From Chloroflexota bacterium (GTDB lineage Bacteria; Chloroflexota; UBA6077; FW602-bin22; CADDYW01), in the NCBI GenBank assembly GCA_021324795.1, contig JAJPIK010000044.1, positions 1-64,000 on the forward strand: a stretch of DNA of 64,000 nucleotides, written 5' to 3'. The number at the start of each line of letters is the position of its first letter. Position 1 is the first letter of the stretch. Positions 15,282-31,388 of the stretch are shown piece by piece. The position numbers and the translations under genes were made by a program. Below the pieces are notes generated by a model, which searched no databases, was not told the origin of the DNA, and was given only the letters and a program-made list of their open reading frames with translations.

Positions 15282-15716
15282 ATGCCAGTTTATGGGCTAT
15301 TATCGAAAGGTGATTCCCGGCTGGCCCTATTGTCCGCGGTTCGGTTCGCTGACGCCGAGCTAGTGGGGGGTGTGAGGTGGAGGGGGCGGATGGCTATCAG
15401 CGAGAGCATGGTACGCGAAGGGATCGAGTCGAGCGATGCTCTGGTCGTCGACGAGGTCCGGCTGATTGTTGGGCCATTCTGCACTTTCAGGGCGGTGCAC
15501 GAGTTCCGGGCCACGTTGGCTGGCGTGGCGGGAGTTCGGGCAGCCCGCGTCCGTCGCTTTTATCAAGGATGGCTGCACCTGCTCGTTCGCTATGAGGGGG
15601 CGACGCCGCTCCCGGAGCGTTTGGCCCGTTTAGATGGGTGGCCCGGGGGTGTGAGCGTCCCGTCGAGTGATACGATCCAATTCGAGCTGACCGGTTCGCC
15701 GACCGGGGTAGTCTGA
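15282..15716 (+). CDS. Conserved hypothetical protein, first gene of the polysaccharide cluster
   Basis: A 144-residue soluble protein I do not recognise. The C-terminal half (about residues 55-120) reads as a compact alpha-beta module: VRLIVGPFCTFRAVHEFRAT, GVAGVRAARVRRFYQGWLHL, VRYEGATPLPERLARL. That resembles a ferredoxin-like or SPOR-like small domain and may be a protein or ligand interaction module. Its TGA overlaps the next ATG, and the gene opens a run of six tightly spaced plus-strand genes ending in a GGDEF-like protein, so a role in exopolysaccharide synthesis or its control is inferred from position only. Confidence 0.6.
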   Translation: MPVYGLLSKGDSRLALLSAVRFADAELVGGVRWRGRMAISESMVREGIESSDALVVDEVRLIVGPFCTFRAVHEFRATLAGVAGVRAARVRRFYQGWLHLLVRYEGATPLPERLARLDGWPGGVSVPSSDTIQFELTGSPTGVV

Positions 15717-15910
15717 TGTTGCCGAGCTTCGAAGGTGGCTGGCAGGCTTTCCTTCGGTTGGGGACAATCCTGCGTATCTTCGTCAGCGTTGGTTTCTGGC
15801 TGGTGCTCTTCGTGGCTGTCTTTCTGATTTATATGATGGTTCCAATCGTCTACCTTGTCTTTGTGACTTTACTGGTTGGTGGGTACGCGCTGTTCCGTTG
15901 CCGAGGCTAA
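15716..15910 (+). CDS. Small two-helix membrane protein
   Basis: A 64-residue protein with a short N-terminal cytoplasmic stretch and two predicted membrane helices (LRIFVSVGFWLVLFVAVFLI and VPIVYLVFVTLLVGGYAL). The start codon overlaps the stop of the previous gene. It sits directly before the large glycosyltransferase. It could be an accessory subunit of the membrane polysaccharide synthase, but nothing in its sequence shows a function. Confidence 0.55.
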   Translation: MLPSFEGGWQAFLRLGTILRIFVSVGFWLVLFVAVFLIYMMVPIVYLVFVTLLVGGYALFRCRG

Positions 15911-15926
15911 CCGACCACGGGGGAGG

Positions 15927-18900
15927 ATGGTGATTCGGAGCCTCTGCCGCCTGACGAGGGAAACCCCCGGGAATGCCGAGATTGATCCACGGGTAATACG
16001 GTTCGTTCCGGAGGCTCTTGCCGAGGAGCTTCGCATCGTGCCGATTGGCTGGTCGGGCGAAGTGGTGCGCCTGGCGGTTGCCGACTGGAGTAGCGCCCGA
16101 GCGCAACAGGTCGAGGCGCGTCTGCGTCGGCCGGTCGATGCTCAGATTGTCGGGGAGCACCGCTGGCAGATCTACCGGGCGATGGTCTACGCACCGGAAA
16201 CTGTCTCGTCCGTTTTAGACGCGGCGGCCCGGGCGATCTGTGATCGCTTGCTGGATGGACTGACCGATGAGCTCGCGGTGACCGCTTGCGCGGCGATTCT
16301 CATGGGGCTCCCCTGGCTACGACAAGTTCCTCACCGCCCGTTGCTCTGGAGTCTGCTTCCCAAGAGCTTGCATCGACGGCGCGATCTTGCGCCGTTCGCG
16401 GTCGTCGGTGATCAATTGCTCATCGCGGTCGCAGGCTGGCTGCCGTCCGGTGAACGCGCGACGATTGCCGCGTGCAGTGGGCTTTCCCCCCGTTTGGTCC
16501 TTGCCCCGGTCAGCGAGGTGGCGGCCGCGGCGAGGGCTCCAGGAGATGTTCGCCGAGCCGATACGTTTCCCAATCTCGAAGCTCTGCTTAAGCAGAAAGG
16601 CCTGCTTTCGCCGATTCACCAGGCAAGTGCTGCCGAGCTGGCCTTAAGGAGCGGACGGGAATTCGGTGAGATTCTGCTCGAGTGCGGTTTGATCGAGCCG
16701 ACAACGCTCCTTCAGATCGAAGCGGAGCGTCAGGGAATTCGGGCCCTACCGCCAGGAAGCCTGCGGGCCAACTCCCAGATCTACCTATCGCCGACCTTGG
16801 CCCGGGCGCGTCGTTGGGTTCCGATCGAGCGCGTGCACGGACGACTTGTGCTCGCCGGACCGGGGCCGTGGGATGATTCCGAGCGCCGGCTGGCCGAAGT
16901 GGTCCTGGGGGACGCGATCGAGCCGGTCTTGGCGCTGGCCAGCGACCTCGATCGAGCGCTTGCTCAATGGTCGCCCGAAGTGGGGATGGCAAAGCGGCTT
17001 GGCGCCTATTTGGTCGCGGCTGGCCACCTCGGTCAAGCAAAGCTCCAGAGCGGGCTATTCCGACAGGGAGATAGCGGTCGGCTTATCGGCGAAACCCTCC
17101 AATCCATGGGGCACCTCGGACGGTTGGATCTGCTCGAGGGCTTATCTTTGCAGGCCGGGCTCCCGTGGCTGGACCTCGCATCGGTTTTCCCCGAAGCGAA
17201 AGCGGTCCACGCCGTGCCGGAAAGTCTCGGCGAAGAGCTCGAAGTGTTGGGGCTGATCCGCGATGGTGCGGTTCTCTACCTGGGAACACCATCGCCTTTG
17301 ACACCGGATTTGCGGGAACGACTCGATCAAGCCGGGATAAGCTTGGTGCAAGAGGTGTTAGTCGAGCGTGAAGCGCTGCGAGCGCGGAGTGACGTCGATC
17401 AGACCTCGGATCTGACCATTCTGGATCAAGGCCAGCGGGCTTTTTGCCGCTGGTTGACCGAGACCCAGGGAGTTCAGCGTGGACCGGCACTGCGCGTCCT
17501 CGCGGCACTTTCGACCGGCTCATCGACCGATCGAGCCTTGGTCAGCGTCTTGGGCTGGACCGAGGAACGGGCAGTGGAGGTACTGGCCAAGTATCGCCAC
17601 CTCGCTGTGCGGTCCCTCTGGCCGGAAGAGCGTCACCGACGCTACTTCGATCCCCTTGGCCGATTTCAAGAGCAGCGAACGTTAGTCGATCCGGTCGACG
17701 TGGCCGCGGCGCGGCTCTTCAATCAAGAAGAGCCGCGGCGTCTCTCGGCACTGCCGATTGCCTTCTCCGGCGAGACGATTGTCGTCGCGGTGGCAGATCC
17801 GCTCGTCGATGGTCTCAGAGAAGAGATTAGCCAGGTGCTGGGGCGACCGTTCGATCTGGTTGTCACCAGACGCAGCGAGTTGGAAGCCGCGGCGCGGCGT
17901 CACCTCGGGCAACGTTACCTCGGCGATTTTCTCATTGAGCGCGGACTGATCACGCCAGATGAACTCGAGAGAGCACTCGACCTTGCCCGACGAACCGGTG
18001 TCCGCTTGGGGTGCGCACTGCGTAGCCTCGGTTTTATCTCGGATGACCAGCTCACCTTCTATCTGGCCGAGCAGTTTCAGCTTCCGTACTTTGACCTGGC
18101 TGGCGTCCAGATCGACCCGTCGGTCGCTTATCTCTTGCCGGAGACCTGGGAGCGTGAGCATGGCATTCTTCCCCTGTCACGTTCGGGCGATTGGCTGACG
18201 GTCGCGATCACCGATCCTTTGGATCGTGAAGGCATCGCATTCGTTGGCCGGGAGACCGGCTTACAGGTCGAGCCGGTTCTGGCGACCGAAAGCGAGCTCG
18301 AAGCTGCCTTGGAAGGTCTTTACCGCGAATACTATTTGACGCGCAGCCGGGAAGAGCTACTCTCGCGCTCGCCGGATGATTCGGCGGTCCGAGTGGTGAC
18401 CACGCCACAAAAGATTGCTTTCGCGATTCTCGGCGTGCTCTTGGTCGTGGGGCTGGCTTGGCATCCGCTCTTGACTCTCCAGATCGTCATTGGATTTGGC
18501 ACGACTCTCAATTTGATCTTCTTTCTCTACAAGTTTTATTTGGTCTACCGAGCAATGACTCACACGTTGGAAGTCGACGTGAGCGCTGAGGAAATAGCGG
18601 CGCTCGACGAGAGCAGCCTGCCGGTCTACACGATCTTGGTGCCGCTCTATCGGGAAGCGGCCGTGATTCCGGTCTTGATCAAGGCGATCGCTCGGTTGGA
18701 TTATCCCCAGACTAAGCTCGACGTGCAGCTTCTCCTGGAAGAGGACGATCGAGAAACAGTCGAGGCGGCCCGAAGTGCGGATCTGCCCGCGCACGTTCGA
18801 ATCGTCGTCGTTCCGGATGGAAAGCCAAAAGGAAAGCCGAAGGCCTGCAATTACGGATTGCTCCATGCCCGTGGCGAGTACGTCGTGATCTTTGATGCCG

Positions 18901-19766
18901 AGGACGTGCCGGATCCTGACCAGCTCAAGAAAGCCATCGTTGCCTTTCAGAAAAGCTCGCCGGACCTCGTGTGCGTCCAGGCCAAGCTCAACTACTACAA
19001 TCAGGACCAGAATCTGCTCACGCGTTGGTTTACCGCCGAATATTCTCAGTGGTTCGACCTGTTCCTCCCGGGGCTAGACGCGACCGGGGCGCCGATTCCC
19101 TTGGGAGGTACCTCGAACCATTTCCGGACCGACCGTCTGCTCGAATTGAATGGCTGGGATCCCTACAACGTCACCGAGGACGCGGACCTGGGGGTCCGTC
19201 TGGTCAAGCTGGGTGGACGCACCGCGGTCATCGATTCGACGACCTACGAAGAAGCCAACTCACAACTGGGAAATTGGATCCGTCAGCGCTCGCGCTGGGT
19301 GAAGGGGTACGTCCTTACCTGGCTGGTCCACATGCGCCATCCGGTTCGCCTCTGGCGGGCGCTCGGGGCCGCCCGCTTCTTCGGTTTTCAACTGGTGGTT
19401 GGCGGCACATTCCTGGGAGTGCTCTTGAATCCGTTCTACTGGTTCCTAACCGCGGCATGGTTTCTCACCCACCTGGCGATTCTTCACGAACTCTTTCCCG
19501 CTATGGTCTATTATGTCGGAGCAGTTGGGCTCTACGTCGGCAACTTCGCCTTTACCTATCTGAATGCGCTGGGCTGTTTGCGCCGCGGCTATCACGGCCT
19601 CGTACGGTACGCATTGCTCAGTCCAATCTACTGGATGCTCATGAGCATCGCCGGCTGGAAGGGAGCGCTGCAGTTGATTTATAAGCCGTCCTACTGGGAA
19701 AAGACGACTCATGGGTTGTATCATGGCCCGGTCCCGCTCGCCGTGGATCATTGGGAGGGCGCTTGA
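15927..19766 (+). CDS. BcsA-like family 2 glycosyltransferase with N-terminal MshEN (c-di-GMP) domains
   Basis: About 1279 residues. The N-terminal 810 hold several MshE N-terminal-type modules. The best are RLGAYLVAAGHLGQAKLQSG at about 357, matching the cyclic-di-GMP consensus RLGxxLVxxGxLxxxxLxxxL, and YLGDFLIERGLITPDELERA at about 664 followed by LGFISDDQL. Two membrane helices (about 829-873) precede a processive GT-A domain: PVYTILVPLYREAAVIP, FDAEDVP (about 989), TEDADLG (about 1083) and the (Q/R)xxRW-type QRSRWVKGY (about 1120). More membrane helices follow. BcsA normally senses cyclic-di-GMP with a C-terminal PilZ domain, which is absent here. Start is uncertain: ATG 15927 right after GGGGGAGG, or TTG 15876. 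It likely polymerises and exports a beta-glycan. Confidence 0.82.
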   Translation: MVIRSLCRLTRETPGNAEIDPRVIRFVPEALAEELRIVPIGWSGEVVRLAVADWSSARAQQVEARLRRPVDAQIVGEHRWQIYRAMVYAPETVSSVLDAAARAICDRLLDGLTDELAVTACAAILMGLPWLRQVPHRPLLWSLLPKSLHRRRDLAPFAVVGDQLLIAVAGWLPSGERATIAACSGLSPRLVLAPVSEVAAAARAPGDVRRADTFPNLEALLKQKGLLSPIHQASAAELALRSGREFGEILLECGLIEPTTLLQIEAERQGIRALPPGSLRANSQIYLSPTLARARRWVPIERVHGRLVLAGPGPWDDSERRLAEVVLGDAIEPVLALASDLDRALAQWSPEVGMAKRLGAYLVAAGHLGQAKLQSGLFRQGDSGRLIGETLQSMGHLGRLDLLEGLSLQAGLPWLDLASVFPEAKAVHAVPESLGEELEVLGLIRDGAVLYLGTPSPLTPDLRERLDQAGISLVQEVLVEREALRARSDVDQTSDLTILDQGQRAFCRWLTETQGVQRGPALRVLAALSTGSSTDRALVSVLGWTEERAVEVLAKYRHLAVRSLWPEERHRRYFDPLGRFQEQRTLVDPVDVAAARLFNQEEPRRLSALPIAFSGETIVVAVADPLVDGLREEISQVLGRPFDLVVTRRSELEAAARRHLGQRYLGDFLIERGLITPDELERALDLARRTGVRLGCALRSLGFISDDQLTFYLAEQFQLPYFDLAGVQIDPSVAYLLPETWEREHGILPLSRSGDWLTVAITDPLDREGIAFVGRETGLQVEPVLATESELEAALEGLYREYYLTRSREELLSRSPDDSAVRVVTTPQKIAFAILGVLLVVGLAWHPLLTLQIVIGFGTTLNLIFFLYKFYLVYRAMTHTLEVDVSAEEIAALDESSLPVYTILVPLYREAAVIPVLIKAIARLDYPQTKLDVQLLLEEDDRETVEAARSADLPAHVRIVVVPDGKPKGKPKACNYGLLHARGEYVVIFDAEDVPDPDQLKKAIVAFQKSSPDLVCVQAKLNYYNQDQNLLTRWFTAEYSQWFDLFLPGLDATGAPIPLGGTSNHFRTDRLLELNGWDPYNVTEDADLGVRLVKLGGRTAVIDSTTYEEANSQLGNWIRQRSRWVKGYVLTWLVHMRHPVRLWRALGAARFFGFQLVVGGTFLGVLLNPFYWFLTAAWFLTHLAILHELFPAMVYYVGAVGLYVGNFAFTYLNALGCLRRGYHGLVRYALLSPIYWMLMSIAGWKGALQLIYKPSYWEKTTHGLYHGPVPLAVDHWEGA

Positions 19767-21385
19767 TGGCGACGCAAAACGTCACCCGTCCGGCAGGTGG
19801 GCGAAGTGCTGTGACGCCAGACCTGGCCGCGATCCGTCTCGGAAACTTGGCGGATGGTCAGCTTCTCATTGTTCTTTTCCTGGTGGTTTACGAGGTTACC
19901 GCCTACCTACTCACGATTCGGTTTGGCTTCTATTTTGGCGATGCGGTATCTCGTACTGCGCAAGCGACGATGGTGGTGGCGAGCCGGGATCCCCACCTGG
20001 GAGCGATTGGCCTCGTTTGGACACCGTTGCCGTCATTGCTTCAGTTGCCTTTGATTTGGGTCTTCGCTCGGTTGGCTTTGCCGCTTCAGTTCGCCGGGCC
20101 GGCCGTCACGGCGATTTTCGGAGCGCTTAACGTCAGTTTGGTTTACCAAATCGGTCAGGAGATGGGGGCCAGTGCTGACTTGCGCGTATTCGGTTCATTA
20201 ATCTACGCGATCCAGCCGATGGTCTGGCTCTACGCCAGCAATGGAATGAGCGAAGTTTTCTTCGCGACGTGCATCGCGCTACTCATCCTTTACCTCGTGC
20301 GCTGGCTGCATCAGCCAACGGTTGCCAACTTGGCAGGAGCGAGTCTGGCGCTTTCTGGAGCCTGGTGGACCCGTTACGAGGCGATTCCGATCGCCGCGGG
20401 ATTTGCCGTGGCCATTGCCCTGGTTGTGCTCGAGCGAAGCGGCGGAGTCGACCGTCTCGAAGGGATGCTCTTGAACGGACTGGCACCATTCGCTTACAGC
20501 GTTTTCCTCTGGCTCTTTTTCAACTGGCTGCTCGTCGGGAATCCGCTCTACTTCTGGAATGGGCCGTATTCGAATGTGACTCAAACGAGCATGCTACGAA
20601 GCTCAACCGGTCCCATGGCTGGCGTATATCATTCGTTCGCCGGTGCGCTTGCCTTTGACGGAGTACGAACGACCGCCATGTTCCTGGGTGTCTGGCCGAT
20701 CCTCTTCGGCTGCACCTGGCTCATTCTGCGACGACGTGACCTTGCTCTCCTCTGCTTGCTCGTTACCATGGTGTCATTGCAAGCGTTCTATCTCTACCAG
20801 CTCTACGCCGGCGAGTTATTCCCTTGGTATCGCTACTGGATCATGATCCCATTCTACGCGATTATCCTCGCGTTCTACCTGCGCGGTCATCCCCGATGTC
20901 CGTGTCTGCTGCGCCGTGATTGGGTAATCCGAGGACTATTCGCCGTCTCTTGGCTGGTCTCGGTCGCCAGCATGTTCGCACCGAGTATCGCGGTGAACGA
21001 ATATCCGTACTTGCTTCAGCTTACCGGTCGCGCGATGGCGGCCCAGATCGGGGTGTCTTTGGCCGACGATCGGATCGTCGCCGACTACGTGTCCTCCTTA
21101 CCCGCTGGATTGATTCTGATGGATAGTAGTGCAGGTGAGCGCATCTTTCTGCTGGCGAAGAATCACACCCGTTTTGTCCTGACGACCGATCGCGATTACG
21201 AGCAGATTCTGAACGATCCTACCCGCTACGTGCGTTACGTGTTGGTTGCCCGTCCGGGGACGGTCGAATACGATACTGTCCTTAATCGTTACCCCACGCT
21301 CTACGATCAAGGCATGAGCTGGGCCAGGTTACTCAAGACATTCCCGGGACCAGCCGGCTGGAAGCTGTACGAGGTGACCGGGTAA
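19766..21385 (+). CDS. Multi-pass GT-C-type glycosyltransferase-like membrane protein
   Basis: A 539-residue polytopic protein with about ten to twelve membrane helices. The first external loop carries FGDAVSRTAQA, an acidic plus Arg arrangement like the catalytic loop of GT-C enzymes (GT39/ArnT/PMT types). The final 130 residues form a soluble C-terminal domain (RDYEQILNDPTRYVRYVLVARP). GT-C enzymes use polyprenyl-phosphate sugars as donors on the outside of the membrane, so it could decorate the glycan made by the preceding synthase. The ATG overlaps the stop of that gene by one base. Family assignment rests on topology and the loop motif only. Confidence 0.65.
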   Translation: MATQNVTRPAGGRSAVTPDLAAIRLGNLADGQLLIVLFLVVYEVTAYLLTIRFGFYFGDAVSRTAQATMVVASRDPHLGAIGLVWTPLPSLLQLPLIWVFARLALPLQFAGPAVTAIFGALNVSLVYQIGQEMGASADLRVFGSLIYAIQPMVWLYASNGMSEVFFATCIALLILYLVRWLHQPTVANLAGASLALSGAWWTRYEAIPIAAGFAVAIALVVLERSGGVDRLEGMLLNGLAPFAYSVFLWLFFNWLLVGNPLYFWNGPYSNVTQTSMLRSSTGPMAGVYHSFAGALAFDGVRTTAMFLGVWPILFGCTWLILRRRDLALLCLLVTMVSLQAFYLYQLYAGELFPWYRYWIMIPFYAIILAFYLRGHPRCPCLLRRDWVIRGLFAVSWLVSVASMFAPSIAVNEYPYLLQLTGRAMAAQIGVSLADDRIVADYVSSLPAGLILMDSSAGERIFLLAKNHTRFVLTTDRDYEQILNDPTRYVRYVLVARPGTVEYDTVLNRYPTLYDQGMSWARLLKTFPGPAGWKLYEVTG

Positions 21386-21423
21386 ATAATGGGTGAGAGA
21401 GGTCTGAACGTGGAGGGAGCTTC

Positions 21424-23523
21424 GTGCGGCAGGGCGTAGCCTGGCTGCTGGCCCTGATCATCTTCCTCGCTATGCCGTTTGCTAAGCCATCAGGGCATTC
21501 GGTTGTCTTCGCTGCTGGTAGCACAACCGAGGTCACCCTCTCCGACGTGGGCGCCGGGGATCTCGTGTTCCAGCGTGGCTATTCGAGCACTGACGTCTGG
21601 CTGCCGGGGCCGGGGCCGGTCACTGTGACCGGTGGTATTTTCGAGCTCCGTTTCGATCACGTTGAACATCTCAATGCACAAGTTTCGAGCATGCTCGTCG
21701 CGCTCAATGGTCACCTCCTGAAGACAATCTTGCTGGGTGATGATAACAGCCGGGGAGCGATGATCTCGCTGGATCTGCCGGTCGAGGACCTGAATCCTGA
21801 CGTCAATCATTTCCTTTTCAACGTCTGGATGACGAGGACGACGGATCTCTGTGCCGGGGCCGATGATCAGTCGCTCTGGCTAACTGTTTCGTCAAAGAGT
21901 CGTCTTATCTATCAAACGGGTAGCCCACAGCAGATGAACTTTGACCTGAAGGATCTCCCCACGCCGTTTGTCGCGCCCTGGTTGCCCCAACCAAGTATGA
22001 TCCAGATGGCGGTGCCCAATGATAGCGATCCCTCGGTGTTGAGTGGGGCGCTGACCCTGGCTGGTGAGCTAGGCCAGATGTCGGGTGGACGGCCGGAGGA
22101 TCTCGAGATCGTCAACCTTGACCAGCTCGCGAGCAGCACTGCTAACGTCATTGTGGTTGGGCTACCCAGGGATCTCCAAGCGATCGCGCGGGTGACCGAC
22201 GATTGGGCCGATCACCTGACACGCAATGGCTGGGAAGCAAAGGACAGTGGGCAGTCGCTGCCGGCCGGGACCGGACTGATCGCTTTGGCCCCTTCGCCGT
22301 GGCAAGCCGGCAAAGCGCTGCTGGTTGTCAGTGGCAGCGATGCCGTTGGTTTGGCGAAGGCAATCGGTGTGCTTGGCACATCGGAAGGACGGGCAACCCT
22401 CACCGGAAATCTCGCGGTGATTGACAATTTCGTACCGGCCGGTGCCGAGCAATCGAACGGTAGTGTGAGTAGCTTCGCCGGGCTAGGCATGGCCGATGAG
22501 CAAGTCTCTGGTATTGGTAATCACGGCGTCGACGTACGCATTCCGTTGAATAGTCGCGACGTGGCGGGGCAGACGGTGATTCACCTGCACATGCTCGCCT
22601 CCCCTCTGCTCGACGGTGATCGTTCGTCGGTAACGGTTACGTTCAACGGTAAGACATTGACTGCCGAGCGCTTGCCAACTAATAACCCCAATCAGATTGA
22701 CATCGCGGTCATCGTGCCACCGGGGGGCGTGCGAACCGGATTCAATACCCTCGGCTTGACCTTCTCGTTGTACCTGCCCCACATGACTGCTTGTGGTGCA
22801 ATCCCCCAGGAACAAGCCTGGGCAACCGTGCTCGCGAGTAGTTCGATCGCGACGGTGCAAGGTGCGCTCAGTCACTCCTTCGATCTGTCGGCTTTGCCTT
22901 ATCCATTCGTCGGTGGAACGACGCCTACCTTGTTCGTTCTGCCGGATGATTCAACTCAATGGTCAACACCCCTGCAACTCGCCTATACGGTTGGTCGGAG
23001 CACCCGACAGCCCTTGAACTGGGTCGGGGTGACCGCCAGCCGGTTCTCCCCTGATCAGGCTTTGGATCACGAAGTCGTCTTGTACGGGACACCGCAGAGC
23101 AATCGCTGGATCGACGAGGTGGTCCCTCATTTGCCTGTCGGATTGGGGGCGCTTGGACGGCGCAGCGTCAGCGTGAGGGGAGTGAACTCGACCCAGGTGA
23201 CCGCGACCGGTCGCTGGGGCGTCGTCGAGATTACCGAGTCACCCTGGGCGAGTTCACAGGCTTTACTCCTGGTCGCCGGCTCGGACGCCACGGCGGCGGA
23301 TTGGGCGGCGGCGGTAGCGGGGCAAGGTGGGCTCAGCGGCCCTTCGGTCGCGGTGACCGGCCCGACGGCGGCGGTACCAATCCGGGCAAGCAACATGGCC
23401 GAGATGAGCGCTGCGTCGCCGAACATGCTGCGCCTCGCTTTGCTGGGCGCGTTCCCTCAGGTGCTGCTCACTTTGCTGGCTCTAGGTTGGCGCATCTGGG
23501 TGCGTTCGAGGCAAGCACCGTGA
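21424..23523 (+). CDS. BcsB-like cellulose synthase accessory protein
   Basis: About 699 residues with a signal peptide (residues 1-30), a long extracellular region with two repeated jelly-roll/flavodoxin-like halves typical of the BcsB family (VELRFDHVEHL-like strands, MQMAVPNDSDP, NVIVVGLPRDLQAIARV, then LFVLPDDSTQW and VVLYGTPQSNRWIDE), and a single C-terminal membrane helix followed by basic residues (LRLALLGAFPQVLLTLLALGW). In bacterial cellulose synthase BcsB pairs with BcsA and guides the polymer out. GTG start at 21424 with GGAGGGAGC before it. It overlaps the next gene by GTGA. Its presence is the best evidence that the neighbouring GT2 is a BcsA-type synthase. Confidence 0.8.
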   Translation: MRQGVAWLLALIIFLAMPFAKPSGHSVVFAAGSTTEVTLSDVGAGDLVFQRGYSSTDVWLPGPGPVTVTGGIFELRFDHVEHLNAQVSSMLVALNGHLLKTILLGDDNSRGAMISLDLPVEDLNPDVNHFLFNVWMTRTTDLCAGADDQSLWLTVSSKSRLIYQTGSPQQMNFDLKDLPTPFVAPWLPQPSMIQMAVPNDSDPSVLSGALTLAGELGQMSGGRPEDLEIVNLDQLASSTANVIVVGLPRDLQAIARVTDDWADHLTRNGWEAKDSGQSLPAGTGLIALAPSPWQAGKALLVVSGSDAVGLAKAIGVLGTSEGRATLTGNLAVIDNFVPAGAEQSNGSVSSFAGLGMADEQVSGIGNHGVDVRIPLNSRDVAGQTVIHLHMLASPLLDGDRSSVTVTFNGKTLTAERLPTNNPNQIDIAVIVPPGGVRTGFNTLGLTFSLYLPHMTACGAIPQEQAWATVLASSSIATVQGALSHSFDLSALPYPFVGGTTPTLFVLPDDSTQWSTPLQLAYTVGRSTRQPLNWVGVTASRFSPDQALDHEVVLYGTPQSNRWIDEVVPHLPVGLGALGRRSVSVRGVNSTQVTATGRWGVVEITESPWASSQALLLVAGSDATAADWAAAVAGQGGLSGPSVAVTGPTAAVPIRASNMAEMSAASPNMLRLALLGAFPQVLLTLLALGWRIWVRSRQAP

Positions 23524-24401
23524 GAGAACGGGTGCGTCGTGCCAATGGCCTGGAGATTCTCATTGGCTTCACCGCTGGCCTCCTCTTGCTCGCGGTCGGG
23601 AGTCTTTCTCTCTGGACGCCCTCTCCTTTGCCAGTCTGGACGGCAGCAGCCCTCTGGCTGGTCGTGGTTGGCGCACTACTTGGCTGGAACTGGCGCCTCC
23701 AGCTCATTCTCTGTATTGGGCTGACACTCGGGTTAACCGCCGGCTGGATTTCACTGGTCCGGAATGATCTAGTACCACCCGCCAGGTTGCAGGACGACGT
23801 TGCCTATGTCTGCGTCACGCTTGTCGTGATGATCCTGGCAAGCATCCTCGTCCGGCAGGCGAAGCAGCTCTGGGAAGCGGCGGAAGCAGATCTCCAGCGG
23901 CAGGTGGCACTGCTCAGCGAGATGACCGTACTGGATCCGGATACAGGTCTCTATAAACTCGACAAAGGCTTGGAAGTCTTGCGTCGAGAGATTCAGCGGC
24001 TCCGCCGAAATAATTTGCCGCTTACCGTGGTGCGCATGCGTCCGCGTGAGCCATCCTTGCTCGATCACTGGCGAACCGCAGTACGCTTGATCCCGCCAAC
24101 CCTGCGGACGATCGACGTCGTGATCGGCGCGAGCGATTGGGAGGTCGGGTTGATTCTGCCCGAAACGGATCTCGAAGGCGCTGAAACCGTCGTCGACCGA
24201 ACCAGGCATCAGCTCGAAGATGCTCTGAATCTCGACGTCCACACTGGGATGGCGATGTTCCCTTTCGACGCCGTGACCGCCGATGGACTCTGGCAGGAGG
24301 CGGGCTACGCTCTTGACCTGGCCCTGGAAGCGCACATTCCCGTCGTCAGCCGGCGCCTCATGGGGAGCGAGGCACCGATCAAGGATCAGATTTCTTCCTA
24401 G
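23520..24401 (+). CDS. Membrane protein with degenerate GGDEF domain
   Basis: A 293-residue protein with three or four membrane helices (residues about 10-115), a short coiled coil (LWEAAEADLQRQVALLSEMT) and a GGDEF-fold domain opening with VLDPDTGLYKLDKGLEVL. The catalytic GGDEF loop is replaced by ASDWEVGLILPETD, so diguanylate cyclase activity is not expected; it may bind nucleotide or act as a scaffold. The GTG start at 23520 overlaps the BcsB-like stop, so it belongs to the cluster. A longer in-frame extension upstream to 23301 only shadows the BcsB gene. Confidence 0.7.
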   Translation: MRERVRRANGLEILIGFTAGLLLLAVGSLSLWTPSPLPVWTAAALWLVVVGALLGWNWRLQLILCIGLTLGLTAGWISLVRNDLVPPARLQDDVAYVCVTLVVMILASILVRQAKQLWEAAEADLQRQVALLSEMTVLDPDTGLYKLDKGLEVLRREIQRLRRNNLPLTVVRMRPREPSLLDHWRTAVRLIPPTLRTIDVVIGASDWEVGLILPETDLEGAETVVDRTRHQLEDALNLDVHTGMAMFPFDAVTADGLWQEAGYALDLALEAHIPVVSRRLMGSEAPIKDQISS

Positions 24402-28920: not shown

Positions 28921-29849
28921 CCGAGAACCGCCGAATTATGGATGAGCGCGATAGCCAAAATGGGGAGCTGACCGACGATCATCTCCTCGTACCGCCGTCG
29001 GGCAATTTTGCCGTGCCGGCGCCGGAAGCAATGCCGATCGAAGAGCCCGCCGCCGAGGCGCATCCGCGGGTTCCGATTCATCTGCCAACACGTCACAATC
29101 CGACACTCCGAGCGATTCTCGATCAGATCAATGCCGACGACGACCTCTATGCGATCTGGCGCTGTGCGAACGTCAACGCGATGGATCGGCTCGGCATGAG
29201 TGACCACGGGCCGGTGCACGTCCAAATCGTCGCCAACATCGGCTTGCGTCTCTTTCGGTTGCTGACCAGTCGACAAATTATGCCCAGCGCAGTCGAGCAT
29301 CACCAACTGACGGTCGACGACGCTGAGGTGATCGTCGCCTTGGCCTGTTTACTCCACGATGTCGGGATGTCCATTCACCGCGACGATCACGAGCGGTACA
29401 GTCTATTCATCGCCCACGACAAGCTGCGCGAGCTCTTGCCCGACTTCTATCCACGTGCGGCCTGCCGGGTGATGATCTCGGAGATTCTCCACGCGATCAT
29501 TGCCCATCGCGCCGGTGGCCATCCCCTGACCTTGGAAGCCGGCATCGTCCGGGTGGCCGATGCGCTCGACATGGCCAAAGGGCGCTCACGGATCCCCTTC
29601 GAGGCTGGTCAGTTGAACATTCACTCGGTGTCAGCGGCGGCAATCGATCGCGTCTCAATCGCCCCTGGTGAAACTCGACCGATTCGGATCGAGATTCACA
29701 TGAACAACTCGGCCGGAATCTTCCAAGTTGATGGATTGCTCAAAGAGAAACTCCTTGGCTCAGGGCTGGAGCAATACGTCGACGTGACCGCGATGATCGA
29801 CGGTGAAGCCGAGAAGCGGCTCATCACCCTGGCGCGGCTGAGTCCGTAG
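28917..29849 (+). CDS. HD-domain phosphohydrolase
   Basis: A 310-residue metal-dependent HD protein. After an acidic, Pro-rich N-terminus (about 1-55) the HD core shows [33 protein letters not shown], a helix with [21 protein letters not shown] and [14 protein letters not shown]. These supply the H..HD..H..D metal ligands. The C-terminal 70 residues form an extra alpha-beta domain. Similar proteins are found in archaea and thermophiles and are uncharacterised; nucleotide or cyclic-nucleotide phosphohydrolysis is the likely chemistry. It overlaps ilvD by four bases and its end overlaps the convergent diguanylate cyclase gene by 26. Confidence 0.82.
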
Positions 29850-31314
29850 CAATCCGGACACAATCACGACCGGCCGCTTTCGCCTGATAGAGGGCGGTGT
29901 CGGCCGCGTGAATCAAGAAGTCAGCGGTAACTTCGGAAGGATTAGCTGCAGCGCCGCCGACACTGACGCTGATTTTGATCCCCGAGATGATCGTGTTGTT
30001 CGCCTGCCAATCGTGAACTGCCTGGCGCATTTTTTCTCCGATTGCCGCGAGGCTTTCGACCGGCGCGCCGGGGAGAATAACTGCGAACTCTTCACCGCCA
30101 TAGCGTGCGACGACGTCGGTATGGCGTACCACCCGATTCAGAGCCTGACTGATCTCCCGGAGCACTTGATCGCCGATTTGATGGCCAAATTGATCGTTGA
30201 CGACCTTGAAATGGTCGATGTCGATCAAAAGGAGCCCGACTGGATAATTAAGCCGACGGGCGTGAATCAGTTCTTCGGCTAGCGCCTGATCGAAGCGTCG
30301 GCGGTTCGCGATGCCGGTGAGACTGTCGGTGATCATCAGACGGGCGGCCTCGGCGTACAGACGGACGTTTTCGAGGGCAATCCCGATCGTATCGACGAAG
30401 TCGCGCATCTGCTCGCGCTCGATCGGGATGATGCGATCGGCAGGCTTGGCCAAAATGAAGAGGAATGTGCCGATCAGTCTTCCCTGGACGTGCACCGGCA
30501 TGCAAACACCACCGTGCATGCCCAGAATGTGCTCGGCTTCGTCTGCAGTGGCCTTCGGCACGGTGGGCGAGATAAAATCCGCCAAGTGCTCGGCTTGGCG
30601 AGGTGTGCCGTGGAGAGCTACCTCGTGAATGAGATTTTGGGGCGGGTCGTAGGATGCCAGGTATTCGCGCAGCGGACGATCGAGAAATGAGAGAGCCGCG
30701 TGAATCAATGGGGTGTCAGTGACAGCGTAGGCTTGGACGATCTTCGCTACTGTGTCGACAGTCGAAAGGAGGCCAGCTAAAAACGAGGAATCGCTGCCAA
30801 AAACCGTTGGCACCGCATCGACGACGCGCTGGGCAAGATCGGACACTTCGACGGTATTGACGAGAATCGTGGTGAGGTGGCGTAAAGCGTTGAGACGCTG
30901 CGTGTGCTGACGAAGCGCCGTCTCAATCTGCCGAGTGTGGAGTAGGCCGCGAACCCGGGCAAGGAGCTCCTCGTTATCGAAGGGCTTCGGGAGGAAGTCG
31001 TCAGCGCCAGCATCAAGGCCAGCAATCCGATCCGGCGTTTGGCCGTGGGCGCTCAAGAGAATGATCGGATGCCGTGCTAAATGTGCGCTGGCCCGGGCTT
31101 GCTGACAAAGCTCTAAGCCAGATCCATCCGGGAGCATGACGTCGAGTACGGTGATATCGGCATCAGGCATGCGCTCGCGCGCGGCGGCGAGTGTGCTGGC
31201 GGTCAGCACCTGGTAGCCATCGCTTTCAAACAAATCGCGCAGTAAGCCAGCGACGGAATGATCATCCTCGACGATAAGGACGCGGTAGGGTTGACGCGGC
31301 TGATTCTCATCCAT
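29824..31314 (-). CDS. Response regulator-GAF-GGDEF diguanylate cyclase
   Basis: A 496-residue PleD/WspR-like enzyme. The receiver domain has VEDD, phospho-acceptor Asp in ADITVLDVMLPDGSG and the Lys in DFLPKPF. A GAF-type domain occupies about residues 150-320 (GTFLFILAKPADRIIP, IEREQMRDFVDTIGIALENV). The GGDEF domain is active-looking: DSLTGIANRRRFD, IDHFKVVNDQFGHQIGDQVL and YGGEEF, with an I-site RHTD five residues before GGEEF for product inhibition. It should make cyclic-di-GMP. ATG 31314 (MDENQPRQPYRVL) is chosen over the upstream frame start at 31359. It could supply the signal read by the MshEN-glycosyltransferase about 10 kb away. Confidence 0.9.
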   Translation of the reverse strand: MDENQPRQPYRVLIVEDDHSVAGLLRDLFESDGYQVLTASTLAAARERMPDADITVLDVMLPDGSGLELCQQARASAHLARHPIILLSAHGQTPDRIAGLDAGADDFLPKPFDNEELLARVRGLLHTRQIETALRQHTQRLNALRHLTTILVNTVEVSDLAQRVVDAVPTVFGSDSSFLAGLLSTVDTVAKIVQAYAVTDTPLIHAALSFLDRPLREYLASYDPPQNLIHEVALHGTPRQAEHLADFISPTVPKATADEAEHILGMHGGVCMPVHVQGRLIGTFLFILAKPADRIIPIEREQMRDFVDTIGIALENVRLYAEAARLMITDSLTGIANRRRFDQALAEELIHARRLNYPVGLLLIDIDHFKVVNDQFGHQIGDQVLREISQALNRVVRHTDVVARYGGEEFAVILPGAPVESLAAIGEKMRQAVHDWQANNTIISGIKISVSVGGAAANPSEVTADFLIHAADTALYQAKAAGRDCVRIATDSAAPG

Positions 31315-31388
31315 TTGCTCTAGTTTACCCCGTGCTCGATTGCTCTTGGGGGGATCCAATCTCCCATCTTCTGGGGGGGCCGAAAGTC

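Follow-up and report, generated by a model that had tools for sequence, protein, structure and literature searches.

Several polysaccharide synthases combine a family 2 glycosyltransferase (GT2) with a BcsB-like partner or with a receptor domain for cyclic di-GMP (c-di-GMP). Here they are compared with a gene cluster at positions 15,282 to 24,401 of contig JAJPIK010000044.1 from a Chloroflexota bacterium (assembly GCA_021324795.1); the stretch analysed, hereafter the window, is the first 64,000 nucleotides of this contig. The published xag and sfz clusters fall in the same family (PMC8250860, PMC4643136). In the stalk cluster of Mariprofundus, sfz1 encodes a BcsB-like protein, sfz2 an EpsE-like N-terminal domain (IPR007831) with a GT2, and sfz3 a protein called unknown (PMC8250860). 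An rpfG mutant of Xanthomonas requires XagB for its raised biofilm (PMC3609779). Like the window synthase, Sfz1-Sfz3 and XagBCD comprise a GT2 with an N-terminal domain of GspE-N/MshEN type, a BcsB-like neighbour, and a membrane protein at the place of our GT-C gene. However, they have one MshEN module against six here, no pseudo-GGDEF partner was found nearby, and the sfz authors read the N-terminal domain as EpsE-like, not MshEN. NfrB of Escherichia coli is likewise a processive GT2 fused to MshEN, for which c-di-GMP binding and requirement were shown (PMC8669469). Unlike in the window synthase, its MshEN is single and C-terminal, and its partner is the outer-membrane protein NfrA, with no BcsB. 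Glycosyltransferase (GT) fusions of MshEN had already been noted (PMC5013675). Control of a GT2 by MshEN, which an initial annotation of this DNA had put forward, is thus not new: NfrB, these fusions and sfz1/sfz2 precede it. Tandem MshEN modules, some binding and some not, occur in PilF of Thermus thermophilus (GSPII-A, -B and -C), although there three modules sit on an ATPase and here six on a synthase. Two of the three PilF modules bind; motif I of the non-binder ends in His instead of Gln (PMC12002112). The BcsA-BcsB cellulose synthase shares the GT2 motifs and the BcsB partner, whereas its PilZ domain is absent here.

A GT2 synthase with six MshEN modules

The synthase open reading frame (ORF) has its probable start at ATG 15927 (Table 1). 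The initial annotation counted from this ATG; its residue 357 is residue 374 of the ORF, the numbering used below. It had noticed a long N-terminal extension on a BcsA-like glycosyltransferase, and about 840 residues indeed precede the first transmembrane (TM) helix of the GT2. Where it had seen at least two MshEN motifs, the PF05157 (MshEN) profile matches six stretches (E=3e-55), located by profile-searching slices at residues 31-107, 147-220, 303-366, 428-503, 606-680 and 734-817. An AlphaFold model (12 sequences; mean predicted local distance difference test, pLDDT, 83) repeats the C-half fold six times. Module 1 lacks an N-half and that of module 2 is shortened, whereas modules 3 to 6 each have one of four helices. 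The top Foldseek match of the model is MshE with bound c-di-GMP (5htl, TM-score 0.85 on the target). The motifs of processive GT2 enzymes are all present and invariant among homologues (D957/D958, D1007..D1010, T1100-E-D, Q1137xxRW). Cellulose as the product is unsupported, the NCBIfam CelA score of the GT2 being 71.4 bits, far under the cut-off of 699. A profile search of the synthase gave no match to PF07238 (PilZ); a C-terminal PilZ of the BcsA type is thus absent, as the initial annotation had held.

Table 1. Features of the cluster (window positions; residues of the synthase ORF)
Feature	Position	Strand	Remarks
P5, short protein	15282..15716	+	C-terminal domain of ~80 amino acids, also seen upstream of the array genes of clade members; no Pfam match
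Putative small hydrophobic ORF between P5 and array gene	15716..15910	+	about 64 amino acids, one or two TM helices; no Pfam match
GT2 synthase with six MshEN modules	15876..19766	+	1296 codons; ATG 15927 probable start
MshEN module 1, C-half only	15966..16196	+	residues 31-107; PF05157 E=2.6e-8
MshEN module 2, C-half and reduced N-half	16314..16535	+	residues 147-220; PF05157 E=0.0026, below cut-off alone; fold seen in model
MshEN module 3, four-helix N-half and C-half	16575..16973	+	residues ~234-366; PF05157 E=5e-8, model; degenerate site
MshEN module 4	16995..17384	+	residues 374-503; sole complete two-motif site on the extended consensus (374-426); C-half alone PF05157 E=1.4e-4
MshEN module 5	17427..17915	+	residues ~518-680; PF05157 E=2.6e-13; degenerate site
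MshEN module 6, membrane-proximal	17916..18326	+	residues 681-817; PF05157 E=3.7e-20; half-site I without R and Q, half-site II intact
GT2 membrane domain	18393..19763	+	TM helices, DxxD, TED, QRSRW; PF13641 E=4e-30
P3, membrane glycosyltransferase of GT-C fold	19766..21385	+	position matches Sfz3/XagC
BcsB-like protein	21424..23523	+	two BcsB modules and C-terminal TM helix; PF03170 E=1.5e-47
P4, membrane-anchored dead GGDEF protein	23520..24401	+	intact RxxD I-site (LRTID)

Homologous GT2 loci from genome surveys are given L numbers (L139, Xanthomonas; L141, Mariprofundus). Thirteen GT2 sequences form one clade centred on Chloroflexota (FastTree support 0.984), whose records, where named, are Chloroflexota, Dehalococcoidia or Thermoflexus. 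Exactly six MshEN stretches were found in each of its nine full-length members, proteins of 40-45% identity, and three and four in two cut or shorter ones. In the assemblies of five of the nine carriers all six MshEN matches are confined to the array protein. Wider class searches for further array carriers gave no new members. Clade loci repeatedly show the array-GT2 gene followed by one or two GT-C genes, BcsB and P4, with some rearrangement; in the 20 kb around L055 neither BcsB nor P4 was found. GT2s of Oscillospiraceae, Paenibacillus and Clostridium (L132, L104, L118, L122) carry extra tandem repeats of the c-di-GMP half-motif (MshEN_N), which is a different kind of expansion.

Ligand sites of the array and the pseudo-GGDEF partner

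An MshEN site consists of two 24-residue c-di-GMP motifs with a 5-residue spacer, compared here at the 14 positions of the extended consensus, (R/K/L)LG...Q. The site that the initial annotation had singled out as matching the consensus lies in module 4 (residues 374-426: RLGAYLVAAGHLGQAKLQSGLFRQ, 5 residues, LIGETLQSMGHLGRLDLLEGLSLQ) and fits at 14/14 positions, versus a maximum of 10/14 in 2000 composition shuffles of the region. Its motif II begins with L and I; an R-to-L change at the first of these positions is tolerated, even favourable, in PilF GSPII-B (PMC11731258). Module 4 of L057 fits at 13/14 at the equivalent place, and the two proteins are identical at 11 of the 14 site positions versus 9 of the 39 others (P=0.0008). 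This is supportive, not proof, because the glycine and the core leucines are also conserved for folding. Modules 1, 2, 3, 5 and 6 do not fit the two-motif consensus; in module 5 an invariant D552 occupies a motif II position where Gly is expected. In the window protein, four of the five modules other than the membrane-proximal one are degenerate, and about 470 residues separate the complete site from the membrane.

The membrane-proximal module has a pattern of its own in the clade. In its half-site I neither Arg nor Gln is left in any of twelve sequences (0/12 each), Gln being replaced by His, Ala or Ser, and its half-site II keeps both (Arg 12/12, Gln 12/12). As the twelve sequences are related, these counts are not twelve independent events. 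Motif I Gln is present in 43 of the 47 single-module homologues having a recognisable site. In homologues with such a site the MshEN nearest the membrane starts 157-169 residues before the GT2 domain, and this geometry of roughly -160 is common to Xanthomonas L139 and Mariprofundus L141. In single-module homologues the canonical site about 160 residues before the membrane would probably switch the GT directly. The initial annotation had suggested such direct control for the window synthase. NfrB offers a precedent, but a simple switch fits poorly here, with module 6 contacts lost clade-wide, four other modules degenerate and the complete site so remote. The retained R and Q of half-site II could also mean that module 6 binds a nucleotide asymmetrically, half-site II holding a guanine and the altered half-site I (Q to H/A/S) another moiety, as in 3',3'-cyclic GMP-AMP (cGAMP), or that the half-sites of two protomers share one c-di-GMP. 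MshEN binds cGAMP weakly (PMC5013675). However, binding is absent from PilF GSPII-A, where H replaces the final Q of motif I and motif II is degenerate (PMC12002112), and R38 can pair with a C-half Asp in chain B of MshE, a structural reason for its retention (PMC11731258). We consider asymmetric binding improbable.

P4, encoded by the last gene of the cluster, has a GGDEF domain that has lost its catalytic signature. Its family profile retrieves GGDEF domains of known structure (best E=1.3e-21; window P4 alone, E=0.004). All eight orthologues have RxxD at the I-site position and a basic residue 31 positions after the I-site Arg, and none has GG[DE]EF, for which reason P4 was rejected as an active cyclase. 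PelD and BcsE are dead GGDEF proteins with RxxD that act as c-di-GMP receptors of polysaccharide synthases, and P4 is comparable to them by sequence: PelD requires the Arg, the Asp and a further Arg (PMC7112168), and BcsE has a similar RxxD I-site pattern (PMC7439463). Because the P4 pattern matches both, a second c-di-GMP input through P4 is likely on sequence grounds. PelD has a GAF domain between its TM and GGDEF regions, whereas no match to a GAF or receiver domain was found in P4, nor to GAF in the orthologues scanned. Among the loci surveyed, P4 was seen solely beside array synthases. The initial annotation's proposal of a different c-di-GMP input can thus be kept, since MshEN takes the place of PilZ and no other c-di-GMP module is recognisable in the synthase, but the operon holds a second candidate receptor.

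From the computed architecture, conservation, operon and folds we infer c-di-GMP binding, allostery, the direction of the effect and the kind of product as follows. On balance we lean towards an exopolysaccharide synthase of Xag/Sfz type under c-di-GMP control, in which module 4 and P4 have taken over sensing from the membrane-proximal module. c-di-GMP would probably be sensed by the site at 374-426 and by P4. As its fold and place are kept and half of its site is lost, module 6 would probably be a coupling element in the clade, relaying from module 4 and P4. By repacking the array, ligand binding would release or activate the GT2, which would elongate the polymer and carry it across the membrane. 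The BcsB-like protein would take it up outside the membrane, and the GT-C protein would add or transfer a sugar from a polyprenyl carrier at the outer face.

Several points weigh against this proposal. The complete module 4 site is limited to the window protein (13/14 in L057) and was lost by the other clade members; it therefore cannot be the common mechanism. Ile replaces Leu at the second position of its motif II, and even a perfect motif may fail to bind in its native context, as in PilF GSPII-A (PMC12002112). The RxxD of P4 is suggestive only, since active GGDEF domains commonly have this motif too. The array could instead be a structural or docking scaffold that no longer senses c-di-GMP, all control coming from the P4 I-site as in PelD and BcsE. 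The decay of module sites in most clade members would fit this, as would those precedents and a partner confined to the array clade with RxxD invariant and GGDEF lost. However, between the window protein and L057 the site residues of module 4 are more conserved than the background, and both half-site II ligand contacts of module 6 are kept in 12/12, which is odd for a pure scaffold. A scaffold role is possible but rather doubtful. It is a tentative and unlikely idea that the six modules are a fixed regulatory assembly in which module 6 uses one guanine half-site for a non-c-di-GMP or shared ligand and c-di-GMP enters at the remote module and the pseudo-GGDEF partner, two inputs being integrated on one glycosyltransferase.

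Neighbouring genes and other routes of control

The GT2 stop overlaps the P3 ATG (shared TGATG) and the BcsB stop the P4 GTG (shared GTGA), which indicates a single operon. The P4 start at 23301 given in the ORF list was rejected for GTG 23520, which fits the orthologue lengths and the overlap. Two proteins of this interval had gone unmentioned in the initial annotation, P4 and the GT-C transferase, whose gene lies between the synthase and the BcsB-like gene that it had correctly reported. The two halves of the BcsB-like protein each match PF03170 (E=5e-29 and 1.5e-18). Searches of the BcsB-like and GT-C proteins against PDB sequences gave no matches, and the GT-C protein was identified by fold search instead: its AlphaFold model (pLDDT 87.5) matches ALG12 (E=5e-6), ArnT (TM-score 0.55), DPY19 and oligosaccharyltransferase in Foldseek. 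PMT_2 was found in 8 of 17 P3 family members. In other Chloroflexota families (L070-L076) a GT2 and a GT-C (PMT_2) are apparently fused, without MshEN, in proteins of about 1130-1250 amino acids; these fusions support the two transferases working together.

The P5-type domain also stands upstream of the array gene in L052, L054, L055, L057, L058 and L060, with varying N-terminal parts; that of L052 is a weak, degenerate receiver domain. This conserved gene, once with a degenerate receiver, and the degeneracy of most modules are what one would expect if the GT2 had no nucleotide regulation at all, the modules being relics and control lying with transcription or with the upstream P5/receiver-like protein. 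It is hard to reconcile with exactly six modules in nine such divergent proteins, whose reading frames of about 1300 codons stay open, and we regard it as very unlikely.

Within the assembly (124 contigs, about 94% complete), profile searches found no PilZ and no MshEN protein besides the synthase, and PilZ-based control was rejected. As four GGDEF domains and one EAL are nevertheless present, the synthase is the best candidate c-di-GMP receptor among the MshEN and PilZ families. PilZ is present in the genomes of 4 of 9 relatives, so its absence is not a clade trait. One of the four GGDEF domains, with GGEEF and RxxD both intact, belongs to a response regulator (29824-31359, minus strand) encoded about 5 kb downstream of the operon, a possible c-di-GMP source. 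An Rfam scan found no c-di-GMP riboswitch ahead of the operon; its sole match within the window is an S-adenosylmethionine (SAM) riboswitch (RF00162, 49337-49440, minus strand, 78 bits).

A family of MshEN-bearing synthases

Homologues of the GT2 are widespread: whole-genome searches recovered them from 57 of 400 genomes sampled in the phylum, and scanning species genomes located them in many other phyla, mostly with a single N-terminal MshEN. P3 and BcsB genes commonly adjoin them. In Mariprofundus L141, BcsB, GT2 and P3 lie side by side in that order, with a weak P3 match (49 bits). The general kind, MshEN and GT2 beside BcsB-like and GT-C proteins, is thus already known across many phyla. 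No description of the six-module form with a likely second sensor was found in the open-access literature; as far as we found, what is new is the six-module clade with its decayed membrane-proximal site and pseudo-GGDEF partner.

Until now annotated separately, xag, sfz and NfrB can be joined in a single family of synthases under MshEN control that share a constant geometry. By this comparison the stalk synthase would carry a c-di-GMP module of MshEN type, and the XagC/Sfz3-type protein, to which the stalk-cluster report gave no function, can be assigned a GT-C fold. At one end of the natural series that the family offers stands a single module whose site is intact, and at the other stand six modules whose sites have decayed, joined by a pseudo-GGDEF protein. 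Such a series helps to ask how a glycosyltransferase is brought under c-di-GMP control and how that control is relocated.

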